In this document: positions 18,601 through 33,743 of the stretch, one piece after another | Layout: each line of letters begins with the position of its first letter | How positions within the stretch are numbered: position 1 is the first letter of the stretch | Source of the DNA: Candidatus Thiopontia autotrophica | GTDB lineage: Bacteria > Pseudomonadota > Gammaproteobacteria > GCF-002020875 | NCBI GenBank assembly: GCA_014384675.1 | Contig: JACNFK010000034.1 | Coordinates: 62,001 to 126,000 of the forward strand | Direction: 5' to 3' | Length of the DNA stretch: 64,000 nt | The notes under the pieces: model-generated | What the model was told of the DNA's origin: nothing | Database searches by the model: none | The model's input: the letters and a program-made list of their open reading frames with translations, nothing else | Made by a program: the position numbers and the translations under genes

Positions 18601-19042
18601 CATCGCTGATTCCTGGAACCCCCCCAAATGCCGCCATTACCGGCATCTGTCGAACCAGCTTTGCATTAAGACTGTCCATGGTGCGGATCTCCAGACGCCC
18701 AGGATTAGTCAACAGCTTCCACCCTCTCTCGCTGTCCCTCTTCAGCACCTCGCTGGCCAACCGCCATGTCACTGCCTTGTGTGGTTCAGCTGGAGATCTC
18801 CTGGAGGCCGCCATCATCAATGAATCAAGCAGTCGTGTACGCATCTCTCCTGCAGCCTTGCGGGTAAAGGTGATCGCGAGGATCTCCTCCGGCTCTTTAA
18901 CGCCAGCCAATAGAGAGAGAAAACGCTGAATCAGCAACTCGGTCTTTCCCGATCCGGCAGGAGCCTGAACTATTGCAGACAACTCAGGGTTTAGCACCTC
19001 CTCACGAACAGTCCTCTCCTCCTCCATCTCTATCGACTGCAT
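15617..19042 (-). CDS. UvrD-type helicase/nuclease, AddA-like
   Basis: 1141 residues from the ATG at 19042, which shares a base with the stop of the upstream partner (TGATG). An SF1A helicase core: Walker A APAGSGKTELL near residue 27, motif II VDEFQDTSHGQ, motif VI region LLYVATTRARRKLHLLG; a C-terminal PD-(D/E)XK nuclease domain with RWIVDWKTSSH near the end. Together with the AddB-like gene next door it forms the AddAB-like double-strand-break end-resection complex, the alternative to RecBCD. The genes are coupled, nuclease subunit first. Confidence 0.9.
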   Translation of the reverse strand: MQSIEMEEERTVREEVLNPELSAIVQAPAGSGKTELLIQRFLSLLAGVKEPEEILAITFTRKAAGEMRTRLLDSLMMAASRRSPAEPHKAVTWRLASEVLKRDSERGWKLLTNPGRLEIRTMDSLNAKLVRQMPVMAAFGGVPGISDDAEEAFSGAARRTIQHLEKKDRAAVAQLLAWLDNDVGQLERMLTDMLGHRDQWLPHVAAGVGGVVDRDSLEQTLCTAVEQSLQNARNGLLRVLGESGVDQLVTLAASAAEVVNSGANNQPVSACAAMDRLPEADAFSLPQWQGIASLFLKGGEKFRVSKNSWNKNNGFPPGAAGGKLKQLMLSLLQTVESDHEAAVAIQQIPLLPPVRYEDSQWETITSLFQVLLIAQIELMGWFEEKGVVDHNEIARRALQALGSEAEPTNLALRLDYQIHHILVDEFQDTSHGQFDLLSRLTAEWSNEDKDRTLFLVGDPMQSIYRFRHAEVGLFIKAIKDGVGGLQLEYKKLLANFRSEEGVVRWINQSFSTIFPAHSDRFSGAIHYSESISTRPQPAERSVVVHPSLLADYEAEASKVVELVREEIPLLQESGDKIAILVRSRSHLNQITWQLYSAGVAYNAVEIESLGDRPVVRDLLALTRALFHQADREAWLAILRAPWSGISLQDLLSLTAGAADRTIWSLLFDDSRLEQLSAIGAERVRWLRNMLESVFAERGEAVVDLWVERAWVLLGGAAIHEQMGVAGQAERESASFFDLLGRMSEGGELTDFDYLREQLNRQTVRSGADPDSRVEVMTIHKSKGLEFDTVILPGLGRKPRGDQQKLLHWLEIPGVGENSAESMQLLLSPVRPAEQGSDEDRLGRYVRKVEQSRERNELSRLLYVATTRARRKLHLLGASKIDSEGELGRPQSGSLLEQLWPVVKSKYEQLFDSGVVDLESAKNRKMVIQGSARPQRISTIWEQPHPPAATPSAGQQTFESERVVYQWAAASAVHVGTVVHAILQWIADAGVESWRDSDKLRSVRKRAENQLRQLGVASETMVEAADKVMEALRLVLEDDKGCYLLSDHAEAKSEWSLSARIGDERFNITIDRTFVDEDGVRWIVDWKTSSHSGGNLDGFLDEEVARYTPQLQRYGKVLQQMEDRPQKLVLYFPMHQVVRVVA

Positions 19043-21699
19043 CACTTCTCTGCTACCTCATACTCAACCCGACAGAGAGACTCCAGTCCACAGTACTGAC
19101 AACTGTTTTTTCCCTTTAGTGGATCAACCGTCGCAACTCCCTCTCTAAACTCAACAGCCAAATCTGTTACGACAGCACGCCACTGACCAATCTGCTCTCC
19201 CCACCCCCCACTGACAACTACTTTTCGTCTTCCTCCCCTGCCCTTTCCATCAGCCCCCTTAAGCAGACTCTCATCTTCCTGCTCCCCCTTATAGGCGACC
19301 TCACCAACCTGAACCTGACCAAAGAGCACCGCAGCGACATCATCAAGCAGGGTGGTATAGAGCGGCAACTGCGGCTCTTCCGGACGCTCCCCCTGCCAAC
19401 TTGCGCTACTAACCTTGCCACTTTTGTAATCAATCAACACCCTGCGTCCATCCTCCAGCCTGTCCACTCTGTCCATCTTCACCGAGATGGTTATCCCATC
19501 CAGTGCAATCGTATGCAACTGCTCCATCTCCTCAATCCTGAACTCGGCTACACGCCCTCGATCCAGCTGTAGAAAACGCATCGCGAGCCGGCTCAATCTG
19601 GCAGCTTCATTGGCTGCAAAATCATCACCCATGCGATCCTTTCTGGAGTGCCTGAACTTCTCAACTGTCTCTTCTGCCACTGCCGCAACCAGTGATCTCA
19701 ATACCTGCTCATCAATCTGCTTCAACTTTATGGACGAGAGCCCCAGTTGTTGCCAACATCTTTCGAGCAGATTGTGGACCAGGGTACCCCGTTCTCGCGG
19801 ATCAAGTCCAAGCTGCTCTCGCTCCACACTCTCTGCCTGCAGGCGATGGCGGACAAATGCCCTGAAGGGACATTGTGACTGGTTTGCAAGAATTGAACTT
19901 CCACCACGAACCCTTGATCCATACTGCAGAGAGAGTGCACCCTCATCAATCTCTTCCAGTGAAATGTTGTCACTATCCAGCCACCACTTTTCAACTGTAG
20001 TTTTTAGACCAAGAGATTGATAATCCATAAATGGAACATCACCAACCATGGATGTCGCCCGCAGACTCTCCTCACCACCCTCACCCTCACTGCTCTCGGC
20101 AAAACTGAAGAAGACCTTGTCTGCTGCAACAGAGAAACCGGCAACCATCTCTTCTGCTATTTTCAGATTATTGCCGCAAGCTGCCATTGGCACCTGGCCA
20201 CGCTGCCACTCCAGGGAGAGAAAAGGCGAAAGCTCTCTTCTGGCTGGCCAGCTCCGATCATCCATCCCCATCACCCATAGTGCGTCATAACCTACTCCCC
20301 GTGCCTCCTCTGGAGTCACAATCTCAACAGCTGCATCAACCGCCTGGTCATACTGAATATCCATTCTGGCAAGAATCTGCCTGAACTCCAAAATAGCTGC
20401 AGAGAATGAGATGACTCCAGTAAAGTCTCCAATCGAGGAGAATCGATCCAGTCCGTCTCGCCAGCTGTTATAGGCAGCGAGAGCAATATCACTCTTCTCA
20501 CCATTTTCGGCCCACTCGAAAAATGCGAGGACACGACTAAAGTTGCCTGCCCACTCGGTCGTGGTTAATCTGGCCTCACTCAACCACAACCCCTCAAGCG
20601 CCCTCAGGGCCCCAAGAAAACGTGTGGCATATATGCCGCCATCTACACTCTCCTGCTCAAAAAGGCGAATCAGCGTAGCCAGAGATACCTCTGGATTACG
20701 CCAGTGGCGCAATCTCAGCTCAAGTATCGACCTCACCTCAATCTCTGCACCCTGCAGAAGCCAGGGTGAGCGCAACAGAGATGCCGCCTCCTGCAGAGGC
20801 AGGCCTCTACCTGCCAACTCCATGAGCTGCATTGCCGTATTTATACGCGGATCCTGTAATAGAGATGGTCCAGATGAAAATCTATAGGGCAGAAGATTGT
20901 TCGACAGAGACCGAACCCTGGTCTCAGGCATCAGAATGAAGCCAAACAGCCTCTCAAGACGATTCCGCCTCCCATACAACCCTGGAACCACAACAGCAAC
21001 CTTGTGGCCCGGATTATCCTGCAGATAATCTCGCAACCAGTATGCAACCGCCACCTCCTCCTCACTCTCACTGGGCAACGAACTCTTAACCACTACACTG
21101 CTTATAGATACTCCGCCCTCCTCTCTTACCTCACAGCCAAGCTCGTTCAACTGTTCAATAATTTGTCTCTCGGATCTGCTGAATTGTGATGCCCCATAGA
21201 TTGAGACAGTCTCTGGCAATATCTCCATGCCCCCATCAAACAGCAGCTCTCTTAACCACTCTGCAATACGTGCATGCTCCAACAAATCATGGCGTTCACA
21301 ATACTCCTTAAACTGTAACTGCCAGCGCCGGAAAAGCTCCTGCTCGTCAACATGTGAATCTATGGGGAGCCCAGCGCCTCTCTCTCTCCAGCGGTTAAAT
21401 ATCTGGTTAGCCACTATCGCATGCTCAACCAGATCCCCCTTACGCAGAAACGACTCCTCCCCCAACAGCTCATGCGGAATTGTCTGGCGCCAAACCACCC
21501 GTTCCTGCTCGGCAGATAACAGATGTGGAAGATCAGCCCCTCTCTGTAGTTGCCGATCCCACTGCTCTCTTATCCAGGCCGACACAGACAGGATAGCTGG
21601 GGTTTCCCATACAGCGACTCCTCTCTGCAACTGGTCATCGCCCCACCGATCCCGGAGATATCGAGCCTGTCTGGCAGTTGCAGTTAACGTAAGATTCAT
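19042..21699 (-). CDS. AddB-like PD-(D/E)XK nuclease subunit with Fe-S cysteines
   Basis: 885 residues. N-terminal region resembles an inactive helicase fold (no Walker A seen), the C-terminal third is a RecB-type nuclease: GTLVHNLLERCW (His motif) and RVLIDYKSGKV (catalytic D and K). Four cysteines that could bind a [4Fe-4S] cluster bracket the nuclease as in AddB: one in SQCPFRAFV and three in CQYCGLESLC at the C-terminus (CxxCx5C). Partner of the downstream helicase in recombinational repair. Assignment is by domain architecture and neighbour. Confidence 0.87.
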   Translation of the reverse strand: MNLTLTATARQARYLRDRWGDDQLQRGVAVWETPAILSVSAWIREQWDRQLQRGADLPHLLSAEQERVVWRQTIPHELLGEESFLRKGDLVEHAIVANQIFNRWRERGAGLPIDSHVDEQELFRRWQLQFKEYCERHDLLEHARIAEWLRELLFDGGMEILPETVSIYGASQFSRSERQIIEQLNELGCEVREEGGVSISSVVVKSSLPSESEEEVAVAYWLRDYLQDNPGHKVAVVVPGLYGRRNRLERLFGFILMPETRVRSLSNNLLPYRFSSGPSLLQDPRINTAMQLMELAGRGLPLQEAASLLRSPWLLQGAEIEVRSILELRLRHWRNPEVSLATLIRLFEQESVDGGIYATRFLGALRALEGLWLSEARLTTTEWAGNFSRVLAFFEWAENGEKSDIALAAYNSWRDGLDRFSSIGDFTGVISFSAAILEFRQILARMDIQYDQAVDAAVEIVTPEEARGVGYDALWVMGMDDRSWPARRELSPFLSLEWQRGQVPMAACGNNLKIAEEMVAGFSVAADKVFFSFAESSEGEGGEESLRATSMVGDVPFMDYQSLGLKTTVEKWWLDSDNISLEEIDEGALSLQYGSRVRGGSSILANQSQCPFRAFVRHRLQAESVEREQLGLDPRERGTLVHNLLERCWQQLGLSSIKLKQIDEQVLRSLVAAVAEETVEKFRHSRKDRMGDDFAANEAARLSRLAMRFLQLDRGRVAEFRIEEMEQLHTIALDGITISVKMDRVDRLEDGRRVLIDYKSGKVSSASWQGERPEEPQLPLYTTLLDDVAAVLFGQVQVGEVAYKGEQEDESLLKGADGKGRGGRRKVVVSGGWGEQIGQWRAVVTDLAVEFREGVATVDPLKGKNSCQYCGLESLCRVEYEVAEK

Positions 21700-30008: not shown

Positions 30009-30395
30009 TTACCCCTTATCCTGCTTGGACTGATAATCCTCAACTGCAGCCTTGATTGCATCCTCAGCCAGCACAGAACAGTGCACCTTTACCGGCGGCA
30101 GCGCCAACTCCTCGGCAATATCTGAATTCTTGATCTGCTGGGCCTCATCCAGAGTCTTGCCCTTGACCCACTCAGTCACCAGTGAACTGGAGGCAATTGC
30201 AGAACCACAGCCATAAGTCTTGAATTTTGCATCCTCTATCACACCATCCTGGTTTACCTGAATCTGCAACTTCATCACATCGCCACAGGCCGGTGCACCC
30301 ACCATACCGGTACCGACATCATCTGCATCCTTATTCATCACCCCAACATTTCTTGGGTTTTCGTAATGGTCCATCACCTTATCACTGTAAGCCAT
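30009..30395 (-). CDS. iscU: Iron-sulfur cluster scaffold IscU
   Basis: 128 residues with all functional positions of IscU: C37 and D39 (in ACGDVMKL), C63 (YGCGSA), H105 and C106 (KVHCSVLAEDA), and the LPPVK segment (99-103) recognised by the HscA chaperone. Scaffold on which [2Fe-2S] clusters are built. It has a CAGGAG ribosome site. No iscS, iscA, hscBA or fdx is beside it, so this is either a second copy or a relocated isc gene. Confidence 0.95.
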   Translation of the reverse strand: MAYSDKVMDHYENPRNVGVMNKDADDVGTGMVGAPACGDVMKLQIQVNQDGVIEDAKFKTYGCGSAIASSSLVTEWVKGKTLDEAQQIKNSDIAEELALPPVKVHCSVLAEDAIKAAVEDYQSKQDKG

Positions 30396-30524
30396 CTAAC
30401 TGCTCCTGGAAAACTGCCCAAATAAATACTTGACCTTTTTACTATACTATAGGCCAATCAAGCTTGCATTAAATATCAGTGACGCATTATATTCCAATTA
30501 ATGGTATCTGATTAGAAGATCGAT

Positions 30525-30618
30525 AAAAAAACGCCAGACATCATCCTGATGTCCGGCGTTACTAACTCCTCCTCTCCCTCCTCGAAGTCCATCTCGAGGG
30601 ACACTCCTCCAAGTGGGT
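30525..30618 (-). ncRNA. Candidate CsrA/RsmA-sequestering small RNA (RsmY/RsmZ/CsrB type)
   Basis: Minus-strand RNA of about 94 nt, predicted from a promoter (TTGACA, 17 bp, TAGAGT) to an intrinsic terminator with seven U. It contains nine GGA motifs. Three hairpins can be drawn by eye: 30615-30602 (4 bp, loop UGGAGG), 30599-30580 (6 bp CCUCGA/UCGAGG, loop GAUGGACU) and 30559-30531 (13 bp terminator stem, loop GGA). GGA exposed in each loop plus GGA repeats in the linker is the hallmark of RNAs that titrate CsrA/RsmA. No credible reading frame. Lies in the gap between iscU and the ArsR gene. The exact 5' end is inferred. Confidence 0.72.
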
Positions 30619-30624
30619 CGAAGA

Positions 30625-30653
30625 ACTCTACACAGCGTGTAACCCATTGTCAA
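30625..30653 (-). promoter_or_regulatory. Sigma-70-type promoter of the small RNA with a GacA-like half-site upstream
   Basis: TTGACA at 30653-30648 and TAGAGT at 30630-30625, 17 bp apart, on the minus strand. A TGTAAG hexamer at 30695-30690 is identical to one half of the GacA/UvrY box found upstream of rsmX/Y/Z genes, centred about 70 bp before the predicted start as in those genes, but the second half (ATTTTG) does not match. Confidence 0.7.
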
Positions 30654-30695
30654 ACAAGATAACGCTCCAATTATGACCAAAATATCTTGCTTACA

Positions 30696-30730
30696 CCGTC
30701 ACCCCCGCGCAAGCGGGGTGGAGGATCCAG
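30696..30730 (+). repeat. Interspersed palindromic repeat of the 'VIPAKAGIQ' type, copy 2
   Basis: CCGTCACCCCCGCGCAAGCG and the following bases to GGATCCAG form a GC-rich hairpin related to 8884-8912 but in opposite orientation. It lies upstream of the small-RNA promoter and of the ArsR gene. Confidence 0.75.
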
Positions 30731-30833: not shown

Positions 30834-31172
30834 ATGGAGGTAACAGCAGGTGAACTGCTTGAGGATCGCACCTCAGCAAAGACCGTATCCAGGGTGATGG
30901 CAGCGATGGCACACCCAATCAGAATGAAAATTCTCTGTCTGTTGATTGATAACGAGATGAATGTGAACGAGATACTTGCCGAGGTTGGCAGCTCTCAATC
31001 AAACATCTCGCAACATCTTGATGCCCTGAAAGGTGCCAATCTTGTGCAGGTAAGGCGCAGTCAACAACACAGCTACTACTCCCTTACCCATAACGAGACA
31101 TCCAGAATAATCTTGCTGGTCCGGGATCTATTCTGCCCCGGACACGCCAGGCTATTGCGTAGCAGATCGTAG
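30834..31172 (+). CDS. ArsR-family repressor with persulfide-sensor cysteine spacing
   Basis: 112 residues, winged helix-turn-helix (SSQSNISQHLDALKGANLVQVRR is the recognition region, written here in parts: SSQSNISQHLDAL then KGANLVQVRR). Two cysteines only, C35 (in MKILCLL) and C101 (in DLFCPGH), 66 residues apart. SqrR and BigR, which sense persulfides through a Cys41/Cys107 or Cys42/Cys108 pair, have the same spacing. It has a strong ribosome site (GTAGGAGGAG) and its own terminator. Inference: a reactive-sulfur-responsive regulator; the controlled genes are not known, soxYZ being the nearest candidates. Confidence 0.85.
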   Translation: MEVTAGELLEDRTSAKTVSRVMAAMAHPIRMKILCLLIDNEMNVNEILAEVGSSQSNISQHLDALKGANLVQVRRSQQHSYYSLTHNETSRIILLVRDLFCPGHARLLRSRS

Positions 31173-31242
31173 CTATAACCCTTTATGACTCCTGGTTTAC
31201 GATAGTTCTCCCTTAACCAGAGAGGGTTTTACAGCGACATGG

Positions 31243-31276
31243 CCGGCATCCACTCAATGTGTATGCCGGTTTTTTT
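31243..31276 (+). terminator. Intrinsic terminator after the ArsR-type gene
   Basis: CCGGCAT and ATGCCGG (7 bp stem, 13-base loop) followed by seven T on the plus strand. Confidence 0.8.
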
Positions 31277-31289
31277 GTTCAGCGTCAGC

Positions 31290-31811
31290 TTACCGCATAA
31301 ACGGCATCATCAGTTTTTCAGGCTTGGTGAACTTATTGATGTCGTAGGCCATACGTCCCATGTTCTGGTCCATTGTTGCCATCGAACCCTGCATATAACC
31401 AATATCCCCACTCATATCTACAATACTGTTCGACATCAGAGCGATATTCTCGGACATCCCCTCAATCTTGCCGGACATGGAGTTGATGTTAACGTTGAGC
31501 TGATGCATATCCTTGCTCATGTTGCCGATATTTCCGGTCATCGACTGCATACCCTGACGTACCAGAGCAAAATCAGCAGACATCACCGCCTGCCCCTGCT
31601 CCATACTCTTTGCCATGGTAGCCATGCGGACACGCATCTCTCGCATATCAGTTGACATACTGTTTACATCGCTCCCCATCTGCAAAACAGCACTCGTCAT
31701 TCGGTGCATGTTCCACCCCATGCTCGCCATAAACAGTGCCATTCCCGCACCCGCGAAAACCATCACCGTTGTGGCTGTAACCCCTGGTCTCTTATCCACT
31801 ACCTGCCACAC
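31290..31811 (-). CDS. Methionine-rich membrane-anchored coiled-coil protein
   Basis: 173 residues with 31 methionines (about 18 percent). One membrane segment near the N-terminus (about residues 13-33, VTATTVMVFAGAGMALFM) and then a long predicted coiled coil in which SM, DM and NM recur at roughly heptad spacing (NSMSTDMREM, NMSKDMHQLN, DMSGDIGYMQ). Start is a GTG; the GGAGG ribosome site is very close to it, so the GTG four codons later (31799) is an alternative. I do not recognise the family. It is downstream of soxYZ but separated by a terminator. Met-rich exported stretches can bind Cu(I) or resist oxidation; both are guesses. Confidence 0.75.
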   Translation of the reverse strand: MWQVVDKRPGVTATTVMVFAGAGMALFMASMGWNMHRMTSAVLQMGSDVNSMSTDMREMRVRMATMAKSMEQGQAVMSADFALVRQGMQSMTGNIGNMSKDMHQLNVNINSMSGKIEGMSENIALMSNSIVDMSGDIGYMQGSMATMDQNMGRMAYDINKFTKPEKLMMPFMR

Positions 31812-31880
31812 CCTCCTCTGTTCACAACAATAGTTGCCGGTATTCTAGCATTATCTAAATTACAATAATGCAAAACCCAT

Positions 31881-31918
31881 AAAAAAACACCGATACCGTC
31901 GAAGAGCGGTATCGGTGC
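31881..31918 (-). terminator. Terminator of the soxYZ unit
   Basis: CACCGATACC and GGTATCGGTG arms (10 bp) with a 10-base loop, followed on the minus strand by seven T. Lies about 54 bases after soxZ. Confidence 0.9.
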
Positions 31919-31971
31919 TATCTTCCCACATTTCTCCACCCAAAAAGGAGAGAGAGGAGAGGTCTGATCCC

Positions 31972-32286
31972 TTACTTTGAGGCCTTGGTACCTGTACCGG
32001 TAGCGCCCTTGTTATCGGTCCAGGTTACGGTGATCTTGTCACCCTTCTCACCTGCAACCTTGATACGAAGGTATGGGTTTTTTGAGACTGTAGTGTTGAT
32101 ATCGGCGTTCATGAATGCAACGCCATTCTTCTCTGCAACCACGGTCTGGATAAAGTGTTCAGGAATAACATTTCCTGTCTTCTTGTCCTTTCTAAGTCCA
32201 GTCTCCATGGGGTGGGTCAATAGACATTTGACATCAATTACACCCTTCTTTGATTTAGCTCTCAGCTTTACTGCTTTCTTTGCCAT
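31972..32286 (-). CDS. soxZ: Sulfur carrier complex subunit SoxZ
   Basis: 104 residues, immunoglobulin-like sandwich without signal peptide; exported as a complex with SoxY by the SoxY Tat signal. Contains the family features THPMETGLRKD and the NPYLRIKV beta strands. It follows soxY by 38 bases. With SoxY it carries thiosulfate-derived sulfur in the periplasm. Confidence 0.95.
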   Translation of the reverse strand: MAKKAVKLRAKSKKGVIDVKCLLTHPMETGLRKDKKTGNVIPEHFIQTVVAEKNGVAFMNADINTTVSKNPYLRIKVAGEKGDKITVTWTDNKGATGTGTKASK

Positions 32287-32324
32287 TTTCTTATCCTCGT
32301 TATATATGTTCTAGGGGTGAATTA

Positions 32325-32765
32325 CTAACCGCATCCACCAGCAGTTACCTTGACCTGGGTCTTATTGCTGATTGTTCCTGATGCAGTCTTGACAACACCA
32401 TAAACATCACCAGTCTTACCCATCTTGATTCTGGTAGAGACAAATGGAACTGCCCCCTCTCCCAGGTGATAGACGCCAGCAATCGGGCGGCCATTGGCTG
32501 CCGCAACAATACTGATACTCTCGATAATACCGTCAACTCCAGTAGCATTAACCTCGACCGGCACCACGGCACCATTCTCGGCAACCTCAGGGGCCTTGAT
32601 CTTTACAGTATTGCTGGGTGTTCCTGTATCACCAGCATCGCTTGACTCCATTGCAGCCTTTGGCCATGCTGCCAATACTGTGCGAGGTGTCAGAAGCCCT
32701 GCACCCAGAGCAGCAGCAACTGCACTGCCTGCCAGGGTTCCCTTCATAAACAATCTTCTTTTCAT
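32325..32765 (-). CDS. soxY: Sulfur carrier protein SoxY
   Basis: 146 residues. Tat signal (KRRLFMKGTLAGSA) and the mature domain ending in the swinging arm with the carrier Cys: the C-terminus is TAGGCG, one Gly shorter than the usual GGCGG end. The carrier cysteine is next to last. No soxXA, soxB or soxCD in the window; a soxYZ pair apart from the rest is common in organisms that store sulfur globules. Confidence 0.95.
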   Translation of the reverse strand: MKRRLFMKGTLAGSAVAAALGAGLLTPRTVLAAWPKAAMESSDAGDTGTPSNTVKIKAPEVAENGAVVPVEVNATGVDGIIESISIVAAANGRPIAGVYHLGEGAVPFVSTRIKMGKTGDVYGVVKTASGTISNKTQVKVTAGGCG

Positions 32766-32894
32766 GGATTTCTCCTCCTTTTTATAAAAAATATCAACCT
32801 TATTATTCTGCTGCCATTCATAACCAGACCGTGCAACATGAACGTCAGACTTTAAACAAAATCACCATAATTGTCTACAGATTACTTGAATAAG

Positions 32895-33380
32895 TCACTC
32901 GCTCAATACCTCAATGGCAGCCATGATAGACTCATCAATCTCTCCATTTACAAAATCACGCACCCCAAGCCCTATTATCCGCTGCTGAATCTCCACCCCC
33001 TTACGGTCAAGAAACAGCAGGGTCGGGGTCAGCCATACCCCATAACTACTGCCCACGCCTGCCGAGGTCATCTTCTCTCCTGAAAAACCCACTATTTTCT
33101 CGGTGTCACCAAGATGAATCTTTCGGATCAGTACCAGGCCGTCATATTCACTGTTTCTAAGTAACGGAACCAGGTGGTCAGACTCCATTACCACACAGTA
33201 TGGACAGTCATCAGCCGAAAACATAAGGATCATCGGGATACGGCTATCACCTGCCAACCCGCCATCACTCTGTAGATTTGAGCTGAATGGCACAGAGAAG
33301 ATGTAGGTGTCACGCCCGGGGGTCTCACCAAAGAGAGATGGCGCAACCAACAGAAGAGATAAAAGCAGGGCTCCTTGCAT
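32895..33380 (-). CDS. Thioredoxin-like protein, SoxS/SoxW type
   Basis: 161 residues, exported (signal peptide about 1-18), single thioredoxin domain with CPYC (in SADDCPYCVVMES) and the cis-Pro loop WLTPTLLFLD. Such proteins near sox genes keep the SoxY carrier cysteine reduced. It precedes soxY on the same strand with a gap of about 130 bases. Whether it corresponds to SoxS or SoxW is not settled. Confidence 0.85.
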   Translation of the reverse strand: MQGALLLSLLLVAPSLFGETPGRDTYIFSVPFSSNLQSDGGLAGDSRIPMILMFSADDCPYCVVMESDHLVPLLRNSEYDGLVLIRKIHLGDTEKIVGFSGEKMTSAGVGSSYGVWLTPTLLFLDRKGVEIQQRIIGLGVRDFVNGEIDESIMAAIEVLSE

Positions 33381-33414
33381 AAAAAAACCCCAACCTCACA
33401 ACATGAAGCCGGGG
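33381..33414 (-). terminator. Probable terminator between the low-complexity gene and the thioredoxin-like gene
   Basis: On the minus strand a hairpin with GGGG/CCCC base and an inner CTTCA/TGAGG helix is followed by seven T, directly in front of the thioredoxin-like ATG. The low-complexity gene would thus be a separate, highly defined transcript. Confidence 0.65.
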
Positions 33415-33437
33415 CCCTGTTTTCAGCTAACCGGGAT

Positions 33438-33743
33438 CTAGCGTGGTGGGTACGCAGGAGTACTGTCACCCCTGGCATCACCACTACCGTGAAGACGCGC
33501 ATTCTCGGCAGCATCAGCATCGGCCTCCATGCTGGAAGCGCCCTTGCCAGATGCGTTAATGGACATGCTGAAGTTACCCTCGGCATCACCAGAACCCTTG
33601 CCCGCACCACGTGCCTTGCCATCCATTGCACCATCAGCAGAACCTGTACCAGCACCAGACTGGTTATCGTCTCCACTCATAAATGCAAATGCACTAGAGG
33701 CAGCAAACGCCATAGCGACGAACCCGACAATTAGTTTTTTCAT
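33438..33743 (-). CDS. Exported Gly/Ala/Ser-rich protein, possibly sulfur-globule related
   Basis: 101 residues. Signal peptide (about 1-20, MKKLIVGFVAMAFAASSAFA), then a low-complexity mature part very rich in G, A, S and D with a central NFSMSINASGKG and a proline/tyrosine end (TPAYPPR). No cysteine. The order signal, Gly-rich part, F-x-M-x-x-NxSGxG and Pro/Tyr tail recalls sulfur-globule envelope proteins but lacks their length and Tyr content, so the link is tentative. Ribosome site AAGGAG. Divergent from the histidine kinase and ended by its own terminator. Confidence 0.7.
   Translation of the reverse strand: MKKLIVGFVAMAFAASSAFAFMSGDDNQSGAGTGSADGAMDGKARGAGKGSGDAEGNFSMSINASGKGASSMEADADAAENARLHGSGDARGDSTPAYPPR

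Follow-up and report, generated by a model that had tools for sequence, protein, structure and literature searches.

A GGA-rich predicted small RNA upstream of iscU in Candidatus Thiopontia autotrophica, a candidate CsrA sponge without a recognisable GacA switch

Introduction

A GGA-rich stretch lies between a promoter-like site and an intrinsic terminator on the minus strand of the window, by which we mean the whole 64-kb stretch of DNA analysed here. The locus raises the question of whether this stretch specifies a small RNA (sRNA) that titrates CsrA in the manner of RsmY, RsmZ and CsrB, as an earlier note had proposed from the letters alone, and whether a Gac-type switch controls it. We examined the anatomy and folding of the unit, its surroundings, its occurrence in the genus, and the presence of the protein partners that such an RNA would require. 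The window genome is referred to as G000 and its five genus mates as G001 to G005.

Results

A predicted transcription unit with its own promoter and terminator

The minus-strand promoter and the following terminator were both located by sequence where the earlier note had claimed them, and they delimit a unit of about 95 nt with the following parts:

30625..30653, minus strand: sigma-70-type promoter TTGACA-17-TAGAGT (sequence reading and 20-kb promoter scan)
30523..30618, minus strand: predicted sRNA of about 95 nt with nine GGA (both transcript ends predicted)
30602..30615, minus strand: possible hairpin 1, CACUUGGAGGAGUG, with GGA in the loop (minor structure, pair probability about 0.2)
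30581..30598, minus strand: hairpin 2, CUCGAG-AUGGAC-UUCGAG, with an ANGGAN hexaloop (folding and G005 counterpart)
30566..30580, minus strand: GGA-rich purine linker GAGGGAGAGGAGGAG (sequence and unpairedness)
30524..30560, minus strand: intrinsic terminator with a 14-bp stem and a GGA loop, followed by a T tract (terminator scan)

The -35 element TTGACA (30653-30648) and the -10 element TAGAGT (30630-30625) are separated by a 17-nt spacer, and the promoter scored 10/12, with only two such matches within the surrounding 20 kb. Promoter-like matches as a class were not above chance in these 20 kb (18 observed vs 25 in shuffles). The terminator stem, with 14 pairs, is the longest among the terminator-like hairpins of the same 20 kb, and its loop region reads CAGGAUG (30548-30542, minus strand). 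By sequence, the unit thus has a promoter and an intrinsic terminator of its own, like the RsmX/Y/Z and CsrB/C sponges. What stands out is the combination of promoter, terminator and GGA motifs on the same strand, not the promoter alone.

GGA content and folding

The nine GGA motifs that the earlier note placed between promoter and terminator were all found within about 95 nt, but two of them fall within the terminator, one of these being buried in the stem. Scanning of either strand of the window indicated that this is the only non-coding peak of nine GGA in 64 kb, the other stretch with nine (19406-19557) lying within a long ORF (19042-21699). The 64 nt preceding the terminator carry seven GGA, a number reached in none of 20,000 shuffles, so the GGA richness is not explained by composition alone, and the unit resembles the known sponges in having several GGA above expectation. 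The count of ANGGA is, on the other hand, low (the window RNA has two, the G005 counterpart described below one), which counts against a sponge.

The minimum free energy (MFE) of the RNA was -41.3 kcal/mol, 3.5 standard deviations better than shuffles (z = -3.5), with the terminator contributing much of this value. The three hairpins with GGA loops described earlier can all form, but the MFE fold prefers other pairing for two of them, hairpins 1 and 2, each with a pair probability of about 0.2. In ensemble folding the GGA of AUGGAC had a mean unpaired probability of 0.93 and that of the terminator loop 1.0; both are exposed in either fold, and four further GGA were at least half unpaired. Presentation of GGA in loops or single strands is thus provided by AUGGAC and CAGGAUG, with the local hairpins 1 and 2 as minor structures.

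The GGAGGAG sequence could alternatively be a ribosome site for a short coding gene of 26 codons starting from the ATG at 30592, which lies 13 nt after GGAGG in a frame that, read by eye, stays open throughout. This frame crosses the terminator stem, however, and in the G005 counterpart a stop follows the fourth codon (ATG GAT GTT GAG TAG), which makes a coding function hardly probable. Another ORF across the element (30498-30680, 60 aa, TTG start) was rejected, as nothing beyond the open frame supports it.

The iscU neighbourhood

The predicted sRNA lies between iscU and a divergent regulator gene:

30009..30395, minus strand: iscU, the iron-sulfur scaffold gene, downstream neighbour
30425..30452, minus strand: promoter-proximal motif of iscU, conserved in 6/6 genus genomes
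30834..31172, plus strand: ArsR/SmtB-family regulator, divergent upstream neighbour, without a close ortholog in the genus

Since iscU is on the same strand and starts about 130 nt past the end of the terminator, a transcript beginning at about 30618 might serve as a leader or attenuator, with terminator read-through controlling iscU. This explanation is very unlikely: the promoter-proximal motif, which may resemble an IscR site, is kept in all six genomes, arguing that iscU is transcribed as a unit of its own and does not need the sRNA as its leader, and G005 carries its probable homolog not upstream of iscU but between a ppiD-like and an HU-type gene.

In the window, the ArsR gene, a gene for a DUF1664-like coiled protein, soxZ, soxY and others (30834-33743) lie between iscU and narX. 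In G004, narX directly adjoins iscU, and soxYZ lies beyond narXL at a distance of about 6 kb from iscU, indicating that the segment between iscU and narX has been rearranged; the sequence upstream of iscU also leads into the narX start in G001 and G003.

A probable homolog at another locus in G005

A DNA search of 56 genomes returned a single match outside the window genome, in G005, covering the terminator (87% over 38 nt, E 2.5e-5). This match is the end of another GGA-rich promoter-to-terminator unit, with a TTGACT-17-TACTAT promoter. The unit lies between the ppiD-like and the HU-type gene and faces the latter (both names were assigned from reading the protein sequences); the locus is not conserved. 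When aligned, both units have a common order of hairpin, GGA linker and terminator. The hairpin reads CUCGAG-AUGGAC-UUCGAG in the window and CUCAAU-AUGGAU-GUUGAG in G005, with AUGGA invariant and two compensatory pair changes; the terminators differ by two further compensatory pair changes around an identical CAGGAUG loop. These counts of compensatory changes were equalled by 29 of 500 shuffles, and with two sequences the covariation is suggestive, not proof. Taken from sequence and predicted structure, the G005 unit is a probable homolog of the window sRNA.

Among the genus mates a recognisable counterpart was thus found in one of five, and none in G001, G002, G003 or G004. A covariance model built from both copies gave no convincing match in these four genomes, the weak ones being rejected as tRNA or other unrelated stretches, and no copy in 35 other loci, mostly iscU neighbourhoods. 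Likewise, no copy lay downstream of ppiD in the remaining genomes, nor, in G004, upstream of iscU or in the sox/nar neighbourhood.

These results bear on another alternative, a non-functional purine-rich spacer that by chance is flanked by a promoter-like site on one side and a terminator on the other. It would fit the chance-level frequency of promoter-like matches and the lack of the element in most genus mates. We consider it unlikely, given that the best-scoring promoter, the longest-stem terminator and the unique non-coding GGA peak are combined on one strand, and that G005 has a structured counterpart.

A CUCC-rich sRNA in the iscU-upstream position of three genus mates

In G002, G003 and G005 the position upstream of iscU is occupied by a CUCCUCC-rich sRNA instead:

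L089:1330-1388, plus strand: CUCCUCC-rich sRNA upstream of iscU, genus mate
L088:1997-2054, minus strand: CUCCUCC-rich sRNA upstream of iscU, genus mate
L087:1974-2032, minus strand: CUCCUCC-rich sRNA upstream of iscU, genus mate

These RNAs form an NmsR-like double hairpin and scored 35.7-42.4 bits against RF02278, below its gathering score of 50; promoter and terminator were confirmed in G005. NmsR/RF02278-type families have been described from Betaproteobacteria, and the genus studied here looks gammaproteobacterial by its nearest IscU relatives.

Because CUCCUCC is complementary to the GGAGGAG linker, the window RNA might act by base pairing or as an RNA sponge, with its AG/GGA-rich linker binding CU-rich anti-Shine-Dalgarno RNAs (NmsR/RF02278-like) in place of CsrA. 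However, the CUCCUCC sRNA was not found by pattern in the window genome, with up to 3 mismatches allowed (nor by pattern in G001 and G004), and what G005 retains is the hairpin with AUGGA and the terminator loop CAGGAUG, whereas the linker differs. Such a base-pairing role therefore appears quite improbable.

A canonical CsrA

The search for csrA suggested by the earlier note found the gene in a single copy (G000:C32:4530-4682, 90 bits). Its product has 64 aa with the VHREEIYQRI stretch intact, and the closest solved structures, 1vpz and 1y00 (P. aeruginosa RsmA and E. coli CsrA, respectively), match it closely over the whole core. Judged by these features, the window genome encodes a normal, canonical CsrA.

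The gene is also present in G002, G003 and G004, all lacking a recognisable sRNA copy, so the co-occurrence of sRNA and csrA is weak. In G001 only 54 nt separate the end of lysC from tRNA-Ser (G001:C85:21937-22533; L156, L158), between which the mates have csrA; the gene thus appears to be deleted there, and the absence of both csrA and a recognisable sRNA copy from G001 counts in favour of a sponge. We did not see csrA in the G005 assembly, where the tRNA-Ser that follows it occupies bases 1-90 of contig C18, i.e. the contig end, so it probably lies in an assembly gap.

No GacA-grade regulator and no GacA box

The Gac-type switch proposed in the earlier note was not borne out. In a profile search, the best UvrY/SirA/GacA score in the window genome was 130.8 bits, where the cut-off is 280, and thus little above the 116.6 bits of the NarL encoded in the window; no regulator in the six genus genomes exceeded the cut-off (maximum 158.7 bits), and no GacA box was found near the promoter within 3 mismatches. 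These searches thus gave no sign that GacA/UvrY activates the sRNA via a GacA box. Control of sulfur or nitrate metabolism by the sRNA, drawn from the neighbourhood only, is not supported.

The TGTAAG half-site is indeed present at 30695-30690, but its second half is absent. It belongs to a repeated stretch:

30672..30706, minus strand: repeated stretch containing TGTAAG, with a second copy at G000:C11:6166-6199 upstream of rne (identified from reading the neighbouring sequence, not by family search)

As part of this stretch and without a partner half, TGTAAG was rejected as a GacA half-site. The segment 30672-30720 consists of a GC-rich palindrome CCCCGCTTGCGCGGGG plus GTAAGCAAGATATTTTGGTCATA, partly recurring upstream of rne (L004), and is probably a dispersed repeat.

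Elsewhere in the genome (G000:C26, L112:1-2825) we noticed a hybrid kinase with the BarA-like domain order HAMP-HisKA-HATPase-REC-Hpt, the gene of which overlaps that of a LuxR-type response regulator; the best GacA-like scorer (130.8 bits) follows the kinase. Both fall far short of the equivalog cut-offs, so the pair was rejected as GacS/GacA proper and stands as a candidate only, although it is conceivable as a functional analogue.

Discussion

With its promoter, GGA array, possible hairpin and terminator, a csrA gene in the genome and a probable homolog in G005, the sRNA is in our reading, held with moderate confidence, a lineage-restricted and GacA-independent RNA that would titrate CsrA. 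A free-standing RNA of about 95 nt would be started by its own promoter and ended by its own terminator, and would expose several GGA sites: those in the loops of the AUGGAC hairpin and of the terminator (CAGGAUG), and those of the purine linker. It would bind several CsrA dimers, by which CsrA-bound mRNAs would be freed. The activating signal would be something other than GacA of the known kind; because a GacA switch was not found in the genome, we probably deal with an ordinary-looking sponge under different control.

A wider interpretation, which we put forward only tentatively, is that of a genus-specific, GacA-free family of CsrA sponges that moves between loci and took the iscU slot held by an NmsR-like anti-Shine-Dalgarno sRNA in sister genomes. 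If the reading as a sponge is true, a small genome of a sulfur-oxidiser has a CsrA sponge without a GacA regulator. Every species with a validated sponge had Gac orthologs (PMC5568370), and the sRNA would thus be a test case for switching by non-Gac means. The sRNA would further indicate that RNAs of this kind can diverge and relocate faster than Rfam models or synteny are able to follow, even among members of one genus.

Compared with RsmX/RsmY/RsmZ and CsrB/CsrC, the window sRNA is alike in being a short free-standing unit with its own promoter and terminator, many GGA, some of them in possible hairpin loops, and csrA in the genome; this unit anatomy, the GGA array and csrA uphold the RsmY/RsmZ/CsrB-like design first noted. 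It differs in the lack of a GacA-grade regulator, a GacA box and an Rfam match: the Rfam search prompted by the earlier note gave no relevant match in the 64-kb window at the gathering threshold, and none to the RsmX/Y/Z or CsrB/C families at E up to 10. Our best reading is hence that the RNA may work like RsmY/Z/CsrB; membership of that family is not claimed, since neither homology nor GacA control was found. Its terminator loop shares CAGGAUG with CsrB, whose CsrA sites were first recognised from a repeat of the form CAGGA(U/A/C)G, and the ligand favoured by CsrA in SELEX presents GGA in hairpin loops of six nucleotides (PMC7652899).

The sRNA passes the pre-filter for RsmA sponges of the InvenireSRNA paper, i.e. 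two or more ANGGA, poly-U within 60 nt and a terminator (PMC5568370), the terminator being judged by our own scan and not by the program of that paper. It also resembles those predictions in being a sponge candidate without a Gac system, as they include species with RsmA but without Gac orthologs; Table 2 of that paper holds no sulfur-oxidising gammaproteobacterium of this kind (PMC5568370). With NmsR and the toxic sRNAs of Betaproteobacteria (RF02278, RF02877) the link is a relative in the iscU-upstream slot of three mates, but those are CU-rich anti-Shine-Dalgarno RNAs whereas the window sRNA is GGA-rich. RsmU of Xanthomonas is likewise a genus-restricted RNA that sequesters RsmA/CsrA outside the known sponge families; it is, however, processed from an mRNA 3' UTR, whereas the window sRNA has its own promoter (PMC7694677).
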